Shown here: positions 888 through 9,156 of the stretch, piece by piece
Numbering within the stretch: position 1 is the first letter of the stretch
How the letters are laid out: each line of letters opens with the position of its first letter
NCBI GenBank assembly: GCA_016188625.1
Contig: JACPHL010000053.1
Span: 1-9,156 of the forward strand
Source: Candidatus Rokuibacteriota bacterium
GTDB lineage: Bacteria > Methylomirabilota > Methylomirabilia > Rokubacteriales > JACPHL01
Direction: 5' to 3'
DNA length: 9,156 nucleotides
The notes under the pieces: generated by a model
The model's database searches: none
Told to the model about the DNA's origin: nothing
Seen by the model: the letters and a program-made list of their open reading frames with translations, nothing else
Translations under genes and position numbers: made by a program

Positions 888-1090
888 ATGAGGTTCCGGC
901 TGACGCTGATCCAGAAGTACACACTGGTGAACGCCCTCAGGTCCCCGTGGTTCTGGTCACCGGATGGGGGAGCAGGTGGCCCCGGAGCTGCTCCGCCGAA
1001 GTGGTGTCGTCCGCCGTGGGCAAGCCCGTTGAGATGAAGGGTCTCCTGCGCATGGTGTCCGAGGTCGTGCGGGGGAGGACCGGCGCTTGA
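888..1090 (+). pseudogene. Collapsed relic of a hybrid sensor kinase (N-terminus joined to broken receiver domain)
   Basis: ATG 888 opens a frame starting MRFRLTLIQKYTLVNAL, which looks like the first cytoplasmic/membrane-entry residues of a HAMP-type sensor kinase. It turns to nonsense within about 17 residues and stops at 1035-1037. From 929, a different frame gives ERPQVPVVLVTGWG, the β4 strand of a receiver domain. It later gives VGKPVEMKGLLRMVSEVV, the conserved Lys-Pro of β5 plus the last helix, ending at TGA 1088-1090. Between them, 970-1014 make sense only in a third frame (EQVAPELLRRSGVVR). That implies a one-base loss near 970 and a one-base gain near 1015. The simplest reading is an internal deletion of a hybrid histidine kinase followed by decay. 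The stop overlaps the TTG start of the next gene, suggesting the ancestral operon was hybrid kinase, kinase, regulator. Confidence 0.6.
1071..1079 (+). promoter_or_regulatory. Shine-Dalgarno that fixes the TTG start of the kinase
   Basis: GGGGGAGGA sits 7 nt before TTG 1087. The kinase frame has no ATG, GTG or other TTG between the upstream in-frame stop (1030-1032) and 1087, so this site supports the rare TTG start. Confidence 0.75.
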
Positions 1091-2591
1091 GCCTTCGCCT
1101 CTTCAAGAACTTCTCCCTGCTGAGCGCCGGCCTGTGGGTGGGCTTCGCCCTCGTCCTGGGCACGGGGGTGACCTACCTCGTCGAGCAGAAGATGCTGGAG
1201 CGGGCCACCCTCACCTCCCTCGACTACTTCAAGAACCTGGCCCGCTTCATCACCACGAAGGAGGAGTTCGTCAGGCTGAGGACCGGAGCGGAGTACGAGG
1301 CCTTCGACAGGATGATCAAGGAGAGCTTCTTCACCCCCCACGTGGTGACGATCAAGATCTATGATCGCTCGGGGACCACGATCTACCACTCCCGGGATCC
1401 GGAAGTCATCGGCCGGGCCTTTCCCGGCAACGTCCCCCTCCAAAAGGCCCTCCGGGGCGAGACGGTGGTCGGGCTTTCGGACCTCCAGGGGGCCGAACAT
1501 CTCGCGGAGCGCCTGGCCGGGTATTCTCGCCTGTTCGAGGTCTACATCCCCATCTTCCTGGAAGGGACGGGCACGGTCATCGGGGCCTACGAGATCTACA
1601 GCCCCATCGATCCGCTCTACCAGAGGGTCTGGGGCCTCCGGCTCCCCGTCTGGGGGGCGATCTTCTTCGGCCTGGCGCTGCTCTACGGGGCGCTCTCGCT
1701 GACCTTCCGCCTGGCCTCCAGGACCATCGTCCAGCAGAACCTCGCCCTGGAGCGGACTGCCAGGGAGCTCCGGGAGGCCTACGAGGAGCTGAAGCGGACC
1801 CAGACCCAGCTCGTCCAGAGCGAGAAGCTGGCCTCGACCGGCCGGCTCGCGGCCGGGATCGTCCACGAGATCGGCAACCCCCTGGGCTCGATCCTCGGCC
1901 TCCTGGACCTCCAGCTCCTCTGCCGCGGTCGGCCCGAGGATCGGGCCGAGTGTCGGGATCGGACCGAGCGCGTCGCGGGCGAGATCGCCCGGCTCAAGCG
2001 GATCCTTCAGGGGCTGCTCGACTACGCCCGCCCCAGTCCGCCTCAACTGGAGCCGCTCGATGTGAACGGGGTCATCGAGAGGACTCTCGCGCTGGTGGCA
2101 TCCCAGAAGGGGTGTCAGGGGATCGTGTGGACGAAGGATCTCGCCGCCCCCCTCCCGCCGGCGTTGGCCGACAGACATCTCCTCGAGCAGGTCCTCATCA
2201 ACCTCCTGCTCAATGCCGTCCAGGCGATGGAGCAGGGTCCCATCCGCGTGGAGACCAGGACCGGGCCGGCCGGGCGGTGGGGGGATGGGGCCTACCGGGT
2301 GGGGCGGGCCTTTTCACCGGACCACGAAGTGGTCGCCATCTCGATCGCGGATCACGGGCCGGGGATCCCCCCGGACCATGTGGAGCGGATCTTCGAGCCC
2401 TTCTTCTCCACGAAGGAGCCAGGCCAGGGCTCCGGCCTCGGCCTCGCCGTCTGCCACAGCCTCATCGAGGCCCTTCAGGGAGCCCTGGCCGTTGAGAGCC
2501 GACCCGGGGCAGGGACCACGGTGCGGGTACTCCTCCCGGCGGCCGGCGTGATGCGCCCGCTCGAGCCCGCAACGGGCAGGGGGCGGTCGGG

Positions 2592-2610
<19 letters not shown>
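1087..2610 (+). CDS. Membrane sensor histidine kinase (NtrB/ZraS-like)
   Basis: This 507-residue kinase is probably the sensor for the adjacent σ54 regulator. The first membrane segment spans residues 10-31 and the second about 184-205. Between them lies a periplasmic domain of about 150 residues with a Cache/PAS-like pattern (VTIKIYDRSGTTIYHS and later EVYIPIFLEGTGTVIGAYEIY). No clear HAMP follows; instead there is a coiled coil at about 212-245. The H-box GIVHEIGNPL has phospho-acceptor His260. The N-box QVLINLLLNAVQAM contains Asn376, the G1 box is DHGPGI (422-427), the F-box is FEPFFSTK (436-443) and the G2 box is GQGSGLGLAV (446-455), so the catalytic domain is complete. An Arg/Gly-rich tail follows from about 485. 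The start is TTG 1087, overlapping the relic's stop; the 3' end overlaps the regulator gene. The signal sensed cannot be told from sequence. Confidence 0.93.
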
Positions 2611-3975
<1,365 letters not shown>

Positions 3976-3995
<20 letters not shown>

Positions 3996-6144
3996 AGGAG
4001 CGCGCGATAGGTCTCCCGGGCGATGCGCGACGGCTCGACGCGATGAGCCACCCGCCTCTTCCTGTCGCCACCCGCCCGCGGCCCCGGGCGGTGGGGGGGC
4101 TTGGGGGAGGAGCGACGCCGCTCCCCCCCAAGGTGGCCTGTTCTGGGCCGTGGTGGCCCTTGCCGCTCCCGCCCTCGCCGCCCAGTCCCCCGCCCCCGCG
4201 GCCCTCGTCGAAGGGCCGGCGGACTACCGGGGCTTCTTCGGGGGGAACTCCCGCCTCATCATCTGGATCGTGGCCCAGCTCCACCTGATGTTCGGGGCCT
4301 TCGTCCTCGGGGTCCCGATCTTCGCCTCGATCGTGGAGATCATCGGCTGGCGCAGCGGCGATTCCCGTTACGACCACCTCGCTCACGAGTTCACGGCGCT
4401 CCTCTCCGCGGCGTTCTCCACCACGGCGGCCTTCGGCGGCCTCCTCGTCTTCGCCCTGATCGGCCTCTACCCGAAGTTCATGAGCTTCCTCACCTCGATC
4501 TTCCACACCACGTACTACATCTACGCGCTCCTGTTTTTCGCCGAGGGGTTCACCCTCTATCTCTACTACTACGGCTGGGGCCGGATGGTGGGCCGCTGGA
4601 AGGGACTCCACGTCTTTCTCGGGATTCTCCTGAACGTTTGGGGAACCGTCCTCATGCTCCTGGCCAACGCCTGGGCCTCGTATATGATGGCCCCCTCGGG
4701 CATCGACAAGGAGACCCTCCGGTTCGTCGGGACGACCTGGCAGGCCGTGGCGAACCCGCTCTGGATCCCCCTGGCCATCCACCGCTTCATCGCCAACATC
4801 GCCTTCGGCGGCTTCATCGTGGGGGCCTACGCCGCGATCAGGTTCCTGGGGGCCCGGAGCGAGGCCGAGCGCGCCCACTACGACTGGATGGGGTACGTGG
4901 GCAACTTCGTGGGCCTGGCGGCCCTGATCCCGCTCCCCTTCGCCGGCTACTACCTGGGCCGAGAGGTCTACTCTGCGAGCCCCGTCATGGGGAACAACAT
5001 GATGGGGGGGGCGTTCTCCTGGAGCTTCATCATCCAGGCGGCCTTGATCGGGATGCTCTTCATCGGCGGCAACTACTACCTCTGGGCGGGGATGGGACGG
5101 ATCAGCGGGGCCGAGCGTTACCGGCCGTACATCAAGTACATCAACGTGATCCTCCTGATTTCCTTCGCGGTCTGGCTCACCCCGCGGAACACCCCCCTCA
5201 CGGGCGAGGAGCAGATACTCCTGGGGGGCCAGTTCCACCCCCTCCTCAAGTACTTCGGCCTCATGTCCGCGAAGAACGCGGCGGTCAACTTCATCATCCT
5301 CTCCACCTTCTTCTCCTTTCTCCTCTACCGCCGGGGAAACAAGGGGCGCACCCGGCCGTTTGCCGAGCACGGACCCGGCGGGAAGCTCGCACTGGCCCTG
5401 GCGGCGGCCGTCTCGATCGGGGTCCTCCTCTGGTACGCGCGGAGCCTCCTCACCCTGGACCCGAAGACGCTCGACCTCTCCCCGGATCGGGCCCGGTACT
5501 TCGCGCTTCCGGCGTACCTCCTCCTTGGGCAGATCGGGATGGTCCTCCTCACGGGGCTCCTGACCCTCCGGGACCTGGGCAAGCTCGCCCAGGCCCTCTT
5601 CTTTGCCTCGACGACCCTGGCATCGGTCTTCGTCCTTGGGGTCTACGGCTTCGTCATCATGGAGAAGGCCAACCCCTTCCTCCGGAACCTCGCCGTGGCC
5701 CAGTGGCTCATGGTGATGGTCTGCCTCCTCTGGAACGCCGCCATCGATCTCCTCCTCTTCCGAGGGGCCGAGACCGTGGGCGGGATTCGCTGGGGGAAGA
5801 TGGCGGCGCGCTCCCAGTACGCCCTGATCCTCCTCTGCGTGAGCATCGTGATGCTCATGGGGCTGATGGGCTTCATCCGCTCCGGGCTCCGGGAAGACTG
5901 GCACGTCTACGGCGTCCTTCAGGATACCTCCCAGTGGGCCTGGACCCCCACCCACGCCTACATGGCGAGGGTCGTGGGCGGCATCGTCCTCCTCTTCCTC
6001 GGACTGGTGGCCTTTGTCTTCTGGCTGGCCGGCCTGGGGGAAAAAGAGGAGGGGATCGGCAGAGTGGCCCCGGCGTATGACGCGCCCGCAGCGGCCTTGA
6101 CCCCCGGAGGCGGAGACCCTCCCGGGGAGGGGGGCTCCCCATGA
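3976..6144 (+). CDS. Cytochrome bd-like (CydA-type) oxidase subunit with C-terminal membrane extension
   Basis: Residues about 90-455 align by eye with CydA. His103 (QLHLMFGAFVLG) matches E. coli His19, Glu190 (LFFAEGF...YYYGWGRM) matches Glu107, and LLANAW matches the VANGW motif. Differences are large. The Q-loop between segments VI and VII is about 19 residues instead of about 140; the position of haem-b558 ligand His186 is Ala273 (His269 is nearby); that of Met393 is Gln354; and the GRQPW motif is replaced by WLTPRNTP. Five or so further membrane segments (470-690) include RSGLREDWHVYG, unlike CydB. This fits the quinol-site-lacking bd-like group known from Nitrospirota (OR-N in Hemp's classification). 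It likely exchanges electrons with the cytochromes downstream (inference). The start is unsure. Residues 1-53 from ATG 3976 look non-genuine, and the signal-like GLFWAVVALAAPALAAQ (54-70) suggests a start near GTG 4150/4153 or a frame error at 4094-4129. Confidence 0.85.
3995..4000 (+). promoter_or_regulatory. Orphan Shine-Dalgarno after the regulator stop
   Basis: AAGGAG begins on the last base of the regulator's TAA. No ATG, GTG or TTG follows at normal spacing: the first ATG is at 4023 and opens only a seven-codon frame. It may be the original ribosome site of the CydA-like gene, separated from its start by later change in 4001-4135 (inference). Confidence 0.4.
4069..4132 (+). other. Two tandem GC-rich hairpins at the 5' end of the CydA-like gene
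   Basis: Hairpin A pairs CACCCGCCCG (4069-4078) with CGGGCGGTG (4085-4093) with one bulged base. Hairpin B pairs 4100-4114 (CTTGGGGG, A bulge, GGAGCG) with 4119-4132 (CGCTCC then CCCCCAAG). It has 14 base pairs, a single bulged A at 4108 and a 4-nt loop. No T-run follows, so it is not a canonical intrinsic terminator. It lies between the regulatory genes and the signal-peptide-like start of the bd-like protein, so it could separate expression of the two halves of the operon, act as an mRNA processing or stabilising element, or be an inserted palindromic repeat. Confidence 0.6.
6124..6140 (+). promoter_or_regulatory. Shine-Dalgarno buried in a start-proximal hairpin
   Basis: GGGGAG (6124-6129) can pair perfectly with CTCCCC (6135-6140), immediately before ATG 6141, with a 5-nt G loop. 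The same G-rich stretch is the ribosome-binding site of the dihaem cytochrome gene. Ribosomes finishing the upstream gene (stop at 6142-6144) would melt the hairpin, which suggests translational coupling (inference). Confidence 0.45.
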
Positions 6145-7136
6145 GGCGAGCGTTCCTGGGTGCCGTCATCTTCGCGGTTGTCCTCGTGCTGGTCTTCGTC
6201 TGGATCGGCGAGGTCATCACCAGGGTCTCCGGGGAGGCGGGGCGCGGCGCGCCCGCCGTTATCGCTCCGGGGGATATCACCCCTGAGGCGGGGGAGACCG
6301 TCTTCTGGGGGAAGGGGAAGTGTTACACCTGCCACGCCGTCGGGAGCCGCGGCAACTCCATCCGGGGCCCCAACCAGGGCGAGACCGGCCCCCTGGCCAT
6401 GGCGATCGGGGCCAGGGCCTCTGAGCGGGCCCGCGAGCGGGCGCAGGCCACGGGCAAGCCATTCACGGCTACGGATTACCTGGTGGAGTCCCTCCTCGAC
6501 CCCGGCGCGTACGTGGTCGAGGGGTACAAGAACGAGATGCCGAACCCCTTGCGCCCGCCGATCAGCCTGAAGCCGGAAGAGGTCACGGCGGCGGTGGCCT
6601 ACCTCCAGAGCCTTGGCGGAACCGTGGACGTGGCGGCCATCAAGCTGCCCCCCGGGGTGGAGGCCGCAGCCAGGGCCGGTGTGGGGGGCGACGAGTGGAG
6701 ACCCTACCTCTCCGGCGATCCCAAGAAAGGGGAGGACCTTTTCTTCGACCCTGAGTCCAACGCGGCCTGCGCCAAGTGCCACCGGGTGAAGGATAAGGGC
6801 GGCGATGTGGGGCCCGAGCTGACCGGCGTGGCCGGTGTCCGGGACCTCAAGTTCATCGTCGAGTCGATCCTGGAGCCCTCCAAGGTGATCGCCTCAGGCT
6901 TTGAGCCGATCCTCATCATCACGAAGGCCGACCAGTACATCACCGGCGTCGTCAAGGGGGAAGACGGCAGCACCATCGTGGTGGGGGATAGCCAGGGCCG
7001 GGTGTTGACGGTCCCCAAGGATCAAATCAAGCAGCGGGCTCCCCAGGCGACGTCCGTGATGCCGGAGAATTTCGGGGAGATCCTCACGGTGGAGGAGTTC
7101 CACGACCTCCTGGCCTTTCTCCAGACCCTGAAATGA
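6141..7136 (+). CDS. Membrane-anchored dihaem cytochrome c with TIGR02603-type haem domain
   Basis: This 331-residue protein begins with an uncleaved anchor or signal (residues 4-22, very hydrophobic after MRR), placing the rest in the periplasm. Domain 1 has CYTCH (61-65) with a likely axial Met133 (NEMPNP). Domain 2 has CAKCH (210-214) followed by GGDVGPELTGV, ESILEPSKVIASGFE, VPKDQI and SVMPENF (Met307), ending in LLAFLQTLK. That series matches the Planctomycete/Verrucomicrobia 'putative heme-binding domain' TIGR02603, here in a short respiratory protein instead of its usual giant dehydrogenase. The gene overlaps the bd-like gene by 4 nt (ATGA) and the next gene by 4 nt. It probably carries electrons between the bd-like subunit and the trihaem partner (inference from context). 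Axial Met assignments are by position only. Confidence 0.92.
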   Translation: MRRAFLGAVIFAVVLVLVFVWIGEVITRVSGEAGRGAPAVIAPGDITPEAGETVFWGKGKCYTCHAVGSRGNSIRGPNQGETGPLAMAIGARASERARERAQATGKPFTATDYLVESLLDPGAYVVEGYKNEMPNPLRPPISLKPEEVTAAVAYLQSLGGTVDVAAIKLPPGVEAAARAGVGGDEWRPYLSGDPKKGEDLFFDPESNAACAKCHRVKDKGGDVGPELTGVAGVRDLKFIVESILEPSKVIASGFEPILIITKADQYITGVVKGEDGSTIVVGDSQGRVLTVPKDQIKQRAPQATSVMPENFGEILTVEEFHDLLAFLQTLK

Positions 7137-9156
7137 GTCGCCAGCGGCGAATTTCCCTCTTCTGGAGCACCCTCATTGCCCTGGCGGTGGTCTGGCTGAG
7201 CCTGAGGTACGCTCTCCCCTACTTCACCATGTGGGTAGCCGGAAGCGAGCGCCCGCTCCCGATCCCCGGAGCCGCGCTCCTCATGTATCTGCTCCTGGTC
7301 CTGGTGGGGGTCCTCGTCTACATCACCATCAGCGATGAGTCGATCCAGGAATTCCTCCGGCCGGTCGTGGCCTTCCTCCGTGGCCCCGATCCCGCCGCCC
7401 CGAACGCCCGGCCGCTCCGGGCAGCGCGCCTGGCCGTTCTCGTCCTCATCCCGCTGCTGGCCGGGGGGTTCGTGTACGCTCGCGCCGTTCCGCGGGCCCA
7501 GAGCCCTACCATCCTCAGGATCCAACACCCCACCATCCCCGGCGCCTACGAGCGGTTGAAGAACCCCTTCCGAGAGCCCACCGACGAGACGGTCAGGAAA
7601 TGGACGGCGGAGACAGAGTTCACCGGAAGCCTGGAGGAGGGCCGTCGGGCGTATCAGGAGGCCGCCCTCGCCGAGGGGCGGGTGATCTTCCAGATCAACT
7701 GCCGACCCTGCCACGGGGACGCCGCCGACGGCGCGGGCCCCATGGCCCAGGGCCTTCGCCTGAAGCCGGCCAACTTCACCGATCCCGGCACCATCGCCAC
7801 GGTCGTGGAGGCCTACGCCTTCTGGCGGGCCACCGAGGGTGGTCCCGGCCTCCCGCCTGAGGCGACCCCGTGGGATTCGGCCATGCCGGTCTGGAAGGGC
7901 GACCTCACCGAGGAGCAGAGGTGGAAGGCCGTCATGGCCGCCTATGACCTGGCGGGCGTCGAGCCCCGGAAACCCGAAAAGCTTGAGGCGAGGCGGTGGG
8001 GGCTTCACCCGCCCTCCGCCTGGGCCCAGACCCGGCCGCCGGAGAATCTCGAGCGGGGAAGACAGATTTACGTCAGGCGCTGCCAGGTCTGCCACGGAGA
8101 GAAGGGGGACGGTCAGGGGCCGGTGGCGCCGTACCTGGACCCGCGCCCCCGCGACTTTACCCTGGGCATCTTCAAGCTCCGCACCACGGAGTCCGGTGAG
8201 CCGCCCACCGATGAGGACCTCTTCCGGGTGGTGACACGCGGGGTGCCGGGCACGGCCATGTCGGGCTGGGCCACGCTTTCGGCTGAGGACCGCCGGCTGG
8301 TGGTCGCTTATATCAAGACCCTCAGCGACGCCTTTGACGAGAAGGGGACGGTGGTCAAACCGGCCAGGGAAGTGGCGTCGTCGTCAGAGGTGAGCGCCAA
8401 GGGCAAGCAAGTCTACCAGAAAGCCAAATGCTGGGAGTGCCACGGCGAGAGCGGGAGGGGTGACGGGCCGTCCGCGCCCACACTCAAAGACGACGCCGGC
8501 AACCTCATCCGGGCGGCGAATCTCCAGAAGGGATGGCGGATCAAGGGGGGGCGCGAGGCGCGGGAGATCTTCATGCGCTTCTCCACGGGTCTGGACGGCA
8601 CGCCGATGCCCTCCTACGCTGATTCGCTCTCGGAAGAGGAGCGCTGGGCGCTGGCCCATTATGTGAGGTCGCTTCAGACTCGGGAGGAGCCGTCGGCCGA
8701 CATCGTTCTCAAGGCTTCGAGGGTCTCGGGGGAGCTCCCCACGGACCCCGCAGACGCTCGCTGGCAGACGGTCCCCTACCTGGTCGTGCCGCTGGCGGGG
8801 CAGGTGCTGGCCAGGCCGCGCTGGGAGCCGCACGCGGTAGACGCGGTGACGGTCCGGGCCTTCTACGACGGTCGGGCGATCGCGTTCCTCCTGGAGTGGG
8901 ATGATCCCGTCAAGGATGTCGAGCACCGACCGGGCCCCGACCCGGAGCTCGGGGAGTTCACGTACCCGCGGCTCGAGCTGAACCGGCCACGCACCGAGAA
9001 GCTCCGCGATGCCGTCAGGCTCCAGTTCCCGCTGACCATCCCGACGGGTCCCGAGCGTCCTCACTTCTTCCTCGGCAGCCCCCGGCGGCCGGTGGTCCTC
9101 TGGCACTGGAAGGCCGACCTCGATGAGGCCGGCAGTAATCCCGTGGTCAAGGAGCG
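7133..9156 (+). CDS. Membrane-anchored trihaem cytochrome c fused to EB_dh-type haem b domain, 3' truncated by window
   Basis: This frame is open from ATG 7133 to the right edge (674 codons, no stop). Three membrane segments lie at about 10-32, 47-66 and 98-117. Periplasmic cytochrome c domains follow with CRPCH (190-194), CQVCH (317-321) and CWECH (433-437), each with a plausible axial Met (251, 376, 492) in AMPVW, AMSGW and TPMPSY contexts. From about 543 the sequence WQTVPYLVVPLAGQVLARPRW, VTVRAFYDGRAIAFLLEWDDP, AVRLQFP and VVLWHWKAD matches the ethylbenzene-dehydrogenase-type haem b domain (EB_dh, PF09459), as in γ subunits of type II DMSO-reductase-family enzymes. EbdC-like proteins bind haem b by Met/Lys; Lys660 in WHWK may matter, but ligands cannot be fixed here. 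The start overlaps the previous stop by 4 nt with no strong SD, implying coupling. It probably links the module to a molybdoenzyme or other periplasmic donor (inference). Confidence 0.88.
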   Translation, partial: MSRQRRISLFWSTLIALAVVWLSLRYALPYFTMWVAGSERPLPIPGAALLMYLLLVLVGVLVYITISDESIQEFLRPVVAFLRGPDPAAPNARPLRAARLAVLVLIPLLAGGFVYARAVPRAQSPTILRIQHPTIPGAYERLKNPFREPTDETVRKWTAETEFTGSLEEGRRAYQEAALAEGRVIFQINCRPCHGDAADGAGPMAQGLRLKPANFTDPGTIATVVEAYAFWRATEGGPGLPPEATPWDSAMPVWKGDLTEEQRWKAVMAAYDLAGVEPRKPEKLEARRWGLHPPSAWAQTRPPENLERGRQIYVRRCQVCHGEKGDGQGPVAPYLDPRPRDFTLGIFKLRTTESGEPPTDEDLFRVVTRGVPGTAMSGWATLSAEDRRLVVAYIKTLSDAFDEKGTVVKPAREVASSSEVSAKGKQVYQKAKCWECHGESGRGDGPSAPTLKDDAGNLIRAANLQKGWRIKGGREAREIFMRFSTGLDGTPMPSYADSLSEEERWALAHYVRSLQTREEPSADIVLKASRVSGELPTDPADARWQTVPYLVVPLAGQVLARPRWEPHAVDAVTVRAFYDGRAIAFLLEWDDPVKDVEHRPGPDPELGEFTYPRLELNRPRTEKLRDAVRLQFPLTIPTGPERPHFFLGSPRRPVVLWHWKADLDEAGSNPVVKE

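Follow-up and report, generated by a model that had tools for sequence, protein, structure and literature searches.

An OR-N family of the cytochrome bd superfamily was reportedly described by Murali et al. in 2021. In two papers its members figure as putative O2 reductases fed by cytochrome c (PMC10839748, PMC12342949). As portrayed there, they share with the protein studied here a CydA-like nature, the lack of quinol-binding residues and cytochrome c partners. The closest described systems are bd-like proteins published beside nitrite oxidoreductase (NXR). In Nitrospira moscoviensis, bd-like_3 is accompanied by a pair of membrane cytochromes c and by alt_NxrC_2, a dihaem protein with one membrane helix (PMC6606698). 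Nitrospina gracilis and Kuenenia stuttgartiensis have the same set, in which the bd-like protein has 14 helices and the Q-loop is missing (PMC3578206). A different periplasmic enzyme, the iodate reductase Idr, is encoded in idrABP1P2 islands, which are marked by two CCP genes and surrounded by poorly conserved genes, and has been reported in Rokubacteria (PMC8692401).

The window analysed here is one whole contig (G000:C98) of 9156 bases. It belongs to a metagenome-derived genome (G000; 2.6 Mb, 84% complete) of an uncultured soil or groundwater bacterium of the Rokubacteriales (Methylomirabilota), and named orthologues with 80-90% identity place it in Candidatus Rokuibacteriota. A sequence-only reading had taken its last three genes for a possible undescribed respiratory module, a view overtaken by the published sets beside NXR (PMC6606698, PMC3578206). 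The triplet is the Rokubacterial version of that bd-like module, and gene 3 joins the monohaem cytochrome of the published sets to their dihaem "alternative NxrC" in a single protein. As in the bd-like_3/alt_nxrC_2 cluster, the bd-like protein has no Q-loop residues, it is accompanied by monohaem and dihaem cytochromes c and by a dihaem alternative NxrC that has a membrane anchor and an EB_dh-type domain, and the set is associated with NXR. The triplet differs from that cluster in its host, in uniting the monohaem and dihaem/EB_dh cytochromes in one protein, in the kinase/sigma-54 regulator pair upstream and in the additional pairing with Idr in relatives. Little has been described of the host group, the fused haem protein and the connection to nitrite-type as well as iodate-type enzymes. 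No paper linking bd-like modules to idr operons, or describing the triplet in Rokubacteria, was found in the open-access literature, subscription papers being outside the search.

Gene layout of the window

Genes 1 to 3 lie on the same strand and overlap by 4 bases at 6141-6144 and 7133-7136 (Table 1); the sequence-only reading had already called them overlapping. Over 87 aa, the CarboxypepD_reg fragment at the contig start shares 74-78% identity with proteins encoded ahead of the triplet in two related loci (L033, L034). Its family is a recurrent companion of bd-like modules and stands beside the module in most loci examined. No gene for a CydB partner subunit was found within the 9156-base window, and a scan for sigma-54 promoters, covering the window and five related loci, gave no passing site.

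Table 1. Positions of genes, motifs and other features in the window
Feature	Position	Strand	Basis
CarboxypepD_reg (beta-sandwich) periplasmic protein, 3' part, cut by contig start	2-307	+	PF13620, E 8e-10
Membrane histidine kinase	1087-2610	+	HATPase_c, HisKA
Sigma-54-dependent response regulator	2592-3995	+	Response_reg, Sigma54_activat, HTH_8
Dispersed palindromic repeat, between regulator and gene 1	4041-4136		Genome copies
Gene 1, CydA-like (bd-like) membrane subunit, start uncertain	4150-6144 (ORF opens at 3976)	+	PF01654
Gene 2, membrane-anchored dihaem cytochrome c	6141-7136	+	PF00034, TIGR02603
Haem c motif CYTCH, gene 2	6321-6335	+	
Haem c motif CAKCH, gene 2	6768-6782	+	
Gene 3, trihaem cytochrome c/EB_dh fusion, truncated by contig end	7133-9156	+	
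Haem c motif CRPCH, gene 3	7700-7714	+	
Haem c motif CQVCH, gene 3	8081-8095	+	
Haem c motif CWECH, gene 3	8429-8443	+	
EB_dh domain (truncated), gene 3	8759-9118	+	PF09459, residues 543-662
Leu codon at Met haem b ligand position (NXR-C Met155)	9074-9076	+	Comparison with NXR-C; ligand identity from PMC8387239

The palindromic repeat at 4041-4136, about 95 bases long, has about 21 further copies in the genome with 88-99% identity, and 8 of 29 relatives contain its hairpin core of about 43 bases. The repeat folds more stably than shuffled sequences do (z -2.8), and a search of Rfam gave no match. Since this dispersed repeat lies within the first part of the open frame and the orthologues of gene 1 begin downstream of 3976, a start at 3976 is unlikely, and the GTG at 4150 is the best candidate.

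The CydA-like subunit and its cytochromes

In the gene 1 protein the match to PF01654 is limited to the N-terminal half (E 1.6e-22). An AlphaFold2 model of the subunit (window 4150-6141; pLDDT 88) has about 14-15 helices and matches CydA over the whole length (Z 32-35, about 350 residues, 3.1-4.0 A), with several extra helices inside. The next-best fold matches are ActC and ActF of alternative complex III (Z 19-22), far below CydA and well above unrelated rows; the model comparison suggests a possible distant kinship with NrfD-like subunits.

The residues H19, H126, E107 and H186 of Escherichia coli CydA have counterparts in H45, H154, E132 and H211. The quinol-site residues K252 and E257 have none, which together with the extra helices of the model agrees with the earlier description of a CydA-like protein lacking the quinol loop. 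The position of M393, the second ligand of haem b558, could not be placed by sequence alignment. In 57 of 57 sequences E99 is replaced by Tyr and E445 by Ser, the latter assignment being less certain than the others because it was counted back from a shared R..W motif. In bd oxidases both glutamates are part of the high-spin haem site. The subunit thus lacks the marks of a canonical cytochrome bd quinol oxidase (K252, E257, E99, E445), and the replacement of E99 and E445 also sets it apart from the OR-N family as depicted in the two papers. Three betaproteobacterial CydA-like proteins (L110, L116, L128) have Lys in place of the conserved His at the H19 equivalent.

The gene 2 protein was correctly recognised as a dihaem membrane cytochrome c. 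It combines PF00034 with TIGR02603 (113.7 bits; cut-off 68.15), two haem c motifs and one N-terminal hydrophobic helix. The gene 3 protein has three N-terminal membrane helices, three CxxCH motifs and an EB_dh domain (PF09459, E 1.2e-8). It is cut by the contig end at 9156, and its orthologues are about 740-800 aa long. As the gene order of the paralogous locus described below indicates, it unites in one chain a monohaem cytochrome and a dihaem/EB_dh protein, which are encoded by separate genes in other modules. Its structure model has low confidence (pLDDT 63.7) and was used for domain matches only; besides PF09459, the EB_dh fold is supported by Foldseek matches of this low-confidence model to 2ivf_C and 7b04_C.

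In the NXR-C of Kuenenia, haem b is ligated by Met155 and Lys305 (PMC8387239). The Met155 position is Leu in all window-type sequences, the window's own included, and the Lys305 position, which lies beyond the window end, is Met in all window-type orthologues reaching that far. Anammox modules, unlike the Rokubacterial triplet, keep both the Met and the Lys of the EB_dh domain. The proteobacterial Idr-linked modules have Arg and Met at the two positions, and the separate NxrC proteins of Rokubacteria, that of G000 included, keep Met and Lys. Compared with the gamma subunits EbdC and NXR-C, gene 3 therefore has the EB_dh fold and not the axial Met and Lys of haem b. The proposed fusion of a trihaem cytochrome c with an EB_dh domain is real; its assignment as a haem b carrier is not supported. 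Because window-type proteins lack both known ligands, "haem b domain" would describe the fold only, and on sequence grounds the EB_dh domain is here more plausibly a fold for docking than an established carrier of haem b.

Distribution and genomic partners of the module

A scan of 85,000 species genomes gave at least 567 relatives, and details were taken from the best 80. Among these 80 are Scalindua, Brocadia, Kuenenia, Jettenia, Nitrospirota, Nitrospinota, Gemmatimonadota, KSB1, Myxococcota and Proteobacteria, and gene set and order are kept in most of them. The synteny on which the earlier proposal hinged is therefore present, and with order and content conserved the three-gene set is not a product of chance. 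The strictly anaerobic anammox bacteria share the module at about 60% identity. Among the best 80 of at least 567 relatives, the fused trihaem form was found in Rokubacteriales only. The window-type gene 1 occurs in 11 of 59 Rokubacteriales genomes, and in the tree the window-type proteins of Rokubacteria group together in a single clade (support 1.0), with branches to other clades supported at 0.04-0.9.

The NXR-like genes that had been expected next to the module are found there in relatives. NxrA and NxrB directly precede the bd-like module in L066 and L067. In L035 (the same locus as L065) the triplet faces a convergent operon of a TorD-like gene, NxrB and NxrA, this NxrA scoring 1515 bits against Kuenenia NXR-A, and in L037 a convergent operon with NxrB lies beside the triplet. 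The kinase/regulator pair leads to the same enzyme: in L168 it stands directly before an nxr operon (TorD-like gene, nxrA, nxrB, narJ, nxrC), and its kinase and regulator are 72% and 69% identical to those of the window. The 3' part of the same operon is present on contig C2 of G000, with nxrB (81% to L168), narJ and nxrC (71% to L168). The locus thus has a bd-like subunit without quinol residues, cytochromes in fixed order and an NXR association, NXR and triplet being on different contigs in G000. G000 also contains a divergent NXR-like operon (L167, G000:C75, 5043-11229, minus strand), which encodes a gamma subunit and a delta-type chaperone of its own. The NxrA-like protein of C75, 43-45% identical to the L035 NxrA, is the only near-complete one in this genome.

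Orthologues of the window kinase (69-72% identity; next best 34-37%) occur in 8 of the 59 Rokubacteriales genomes. All eight have NxrA-like genes, against 12 of the other 51 (p = 5.7e-5), six of the eight have the triplet (p = 2.4e-4), and the triplet itself is associated with NxrA-like genes (p = 0.005), all three tests ignoring shared ancestry. An NxrA-like match was absent from three triplet-bearing genomes, two of them incomplete and the third having NxrB on L037. The kinase/sigma-54 regulator pair is a marker of NXR-bearing genomes. In L198 the pair follows the trihaem gene, and in L199 it lies about 7 kb from an IdrP-like CCP gene.

The second partner is Idr. The gene immediately before the triplet belongs to the AioA/IdrA family in L035, L036 and L064, the last being the nearest relative (90% identity), and Rieske and CCP genes accompany it in L035 and L036. 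In the tree the L035/L036-type proteins fall in the Idr clade, apart from AioA, with 60% identity to the Azonexus protein and 31% to AioA. These operons are thus of the same clade as the iodate reductase islands idrABP1P2 (PMC8692401), although the idr loci of Azonexus and of a Vibrio plasmid have no bd-like modules. About 20 proteobacterial loci (L100-L136) have the order CCP-CCP-IdrB-IdrA with a HEAT-repeat protein, followed by the bd-like module. L035, L036 and these proteobacterial loci share membership of the IdrA clade and the two CCP genes. In L100-L136 a second bd-like module usually comes after the first, and the order is fixed, in contrast to the poor conservation reported around idr. 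In the 84% complete assembly of G000 no idr genes were found, nor any match to Rieske_3 or CCP_MauG. Two further Rokubacterial operons of AioA-like type (L177, L178), unlike the Idr-type ones, have no CCP genes and lie near an ArsR-like regulator; they probably encode true arsenite oxidases.

A paralogue of gene 1, 55% identical, is found in nearly all of the 59 Rokubacteriales genomes. Its locus has the order CydA-like, dihaem, monohaem, dihaem/EB_dh, CarboxypepD_reg, CoxB, CoxA, CtaA, CtaB, CoxC, so that in most Rokubacteriales genomes the paralogous module (L042-L048; L009/L002 in G000) directly precedes aa3 oxidase genes. The CoxB and CoxA fragments found in G000 belong to the cluster around the paralogous module of that genome. 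This housekeeping bd-like/cox module has the same three or four components as the window triplet but differs in preceding aa3 oxidase genes, in keeping the EB_dh Met and in having its haem genes usually split. The window-type triplet is not beside cox genes in any assembled flank.

Proposed electron exchange and competing explanations

We lean towards the view that the triplet is a Rokubacterial bd-like electron-transfer module accompanying NXR, through which a periplasmic molybdoenzyme and the membrane exchange electrons. The EB_dh domain would now mainly be a docking site for the molybdoenzyme or for the gamma subunit of that enzyme, the enzyme being NXR here and Idr in some relatives. Electrons would run along the five c haems to the haem or haems of the CydA-like subunit inside the membrane. 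From there they may go on to the quinone pool or to a different partner in the membrane, which for NXR would be reverse electron transport; no quinone site was identified. The sequence-only reading had pictured a c/b-haem wire into a non-quinol bd-like terminal reductase. A conserved electron-transfer module with a non-quinol bd-like subunit is left of that picture, the haem b is unsupported, and the role of "terminal reductase" is unproven.

It is rather doubtful that the module is an OR-N-type terminal O2 reductase supplied by cytochrome c, in which electrons from NXR or Idr would pass through the c haems and the CydA-like subunit to O2. This role would agree with the papers in which OR-N proteins figure as putative O2 reductases (PMC10839748, PMC12342949), with the retained equivalents of H19, H126, H186 and E107 in a whole-length CydA fold, and with the presence of the module in aerobic nitrite oxidisers. 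Yet the paralogous module of the same order adjoins aa3 oxidase genes of its own, represented in G000 by the CoxB and CoxA fragments. A plain terminal oxidase, reducing O2 directly at a canonical high-spin di-haem site, is also less likely because the module is strongly conserved in strictly anaerobic anammox bacteria, because both glutamates are replaced in all 57 sequences, and because the role is unfit for an iodate-reducing Idr partner. The findings agree better with a complex that exchanges electrons between periplasm and membrane, its final acceptor being inferred, than with a proven O2 reductase.

The Idr-linked relatives raise the question of whether the triplet in G000 itself serves an Idr-type enzyme instead of NXR, carrying quinol electrons to iodate reductase. 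The upstream Idr-type genes in L035, L036 and L064, the IdrP-like CCP gene near the kinase pair in L199 and the proteobacterial loci speak for this, but the 84% complete assembly of G000 has neither a Rieske_3 nor a CCP_MauG match and the kinase pair tracks NxrA-like genes with no exception; we consider it improbable. Least credible is a complex III substitute feeding the aa3 oxidase. It draws on the paralogous module before CoxB-CoxA-CtaA-CtaB-CoxC in most Rokubacteriales and on the absence of cytochrome b (PF00033) from 22 of 36 good genomes. As alternative complex III (ActD) is nearly universal (35 of 36 good genomes), a necessary substitute was rejected, and the window-type triplet is moreover confined to 11 of the 59 genomes and, in every assembled flank, lies away from cox genes.

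With the electron-exchange module as the favoured reading, the Rokubacteriales join the lineages that combine a true NXR with a bd-like module, and the regulator pair can be named as a marker of the system. One module is tied to two different molybdoenzymes, NXR and Idr, and its function is thereby constrained, as it must suit NXR, Idr and the anaerobic anammox cells. A wider and quite speculative extension, to which we give little credence, is that the bd-like module serves high-potential periplasmic molybdoenzymes in general as their membrane partner, and that the Idr-clade enzymes joined to it in Rokubacteriales and the roughly 20 proteobacterial loci run oxidatively, in an aerobic iodide-to-iodate respiratory chain built like that of nitrite oxidisers. 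If Idr-linked relatives are isolated, the role of the nitrite oxidisers' bd-like proteins would become testable in Proteobacteria.
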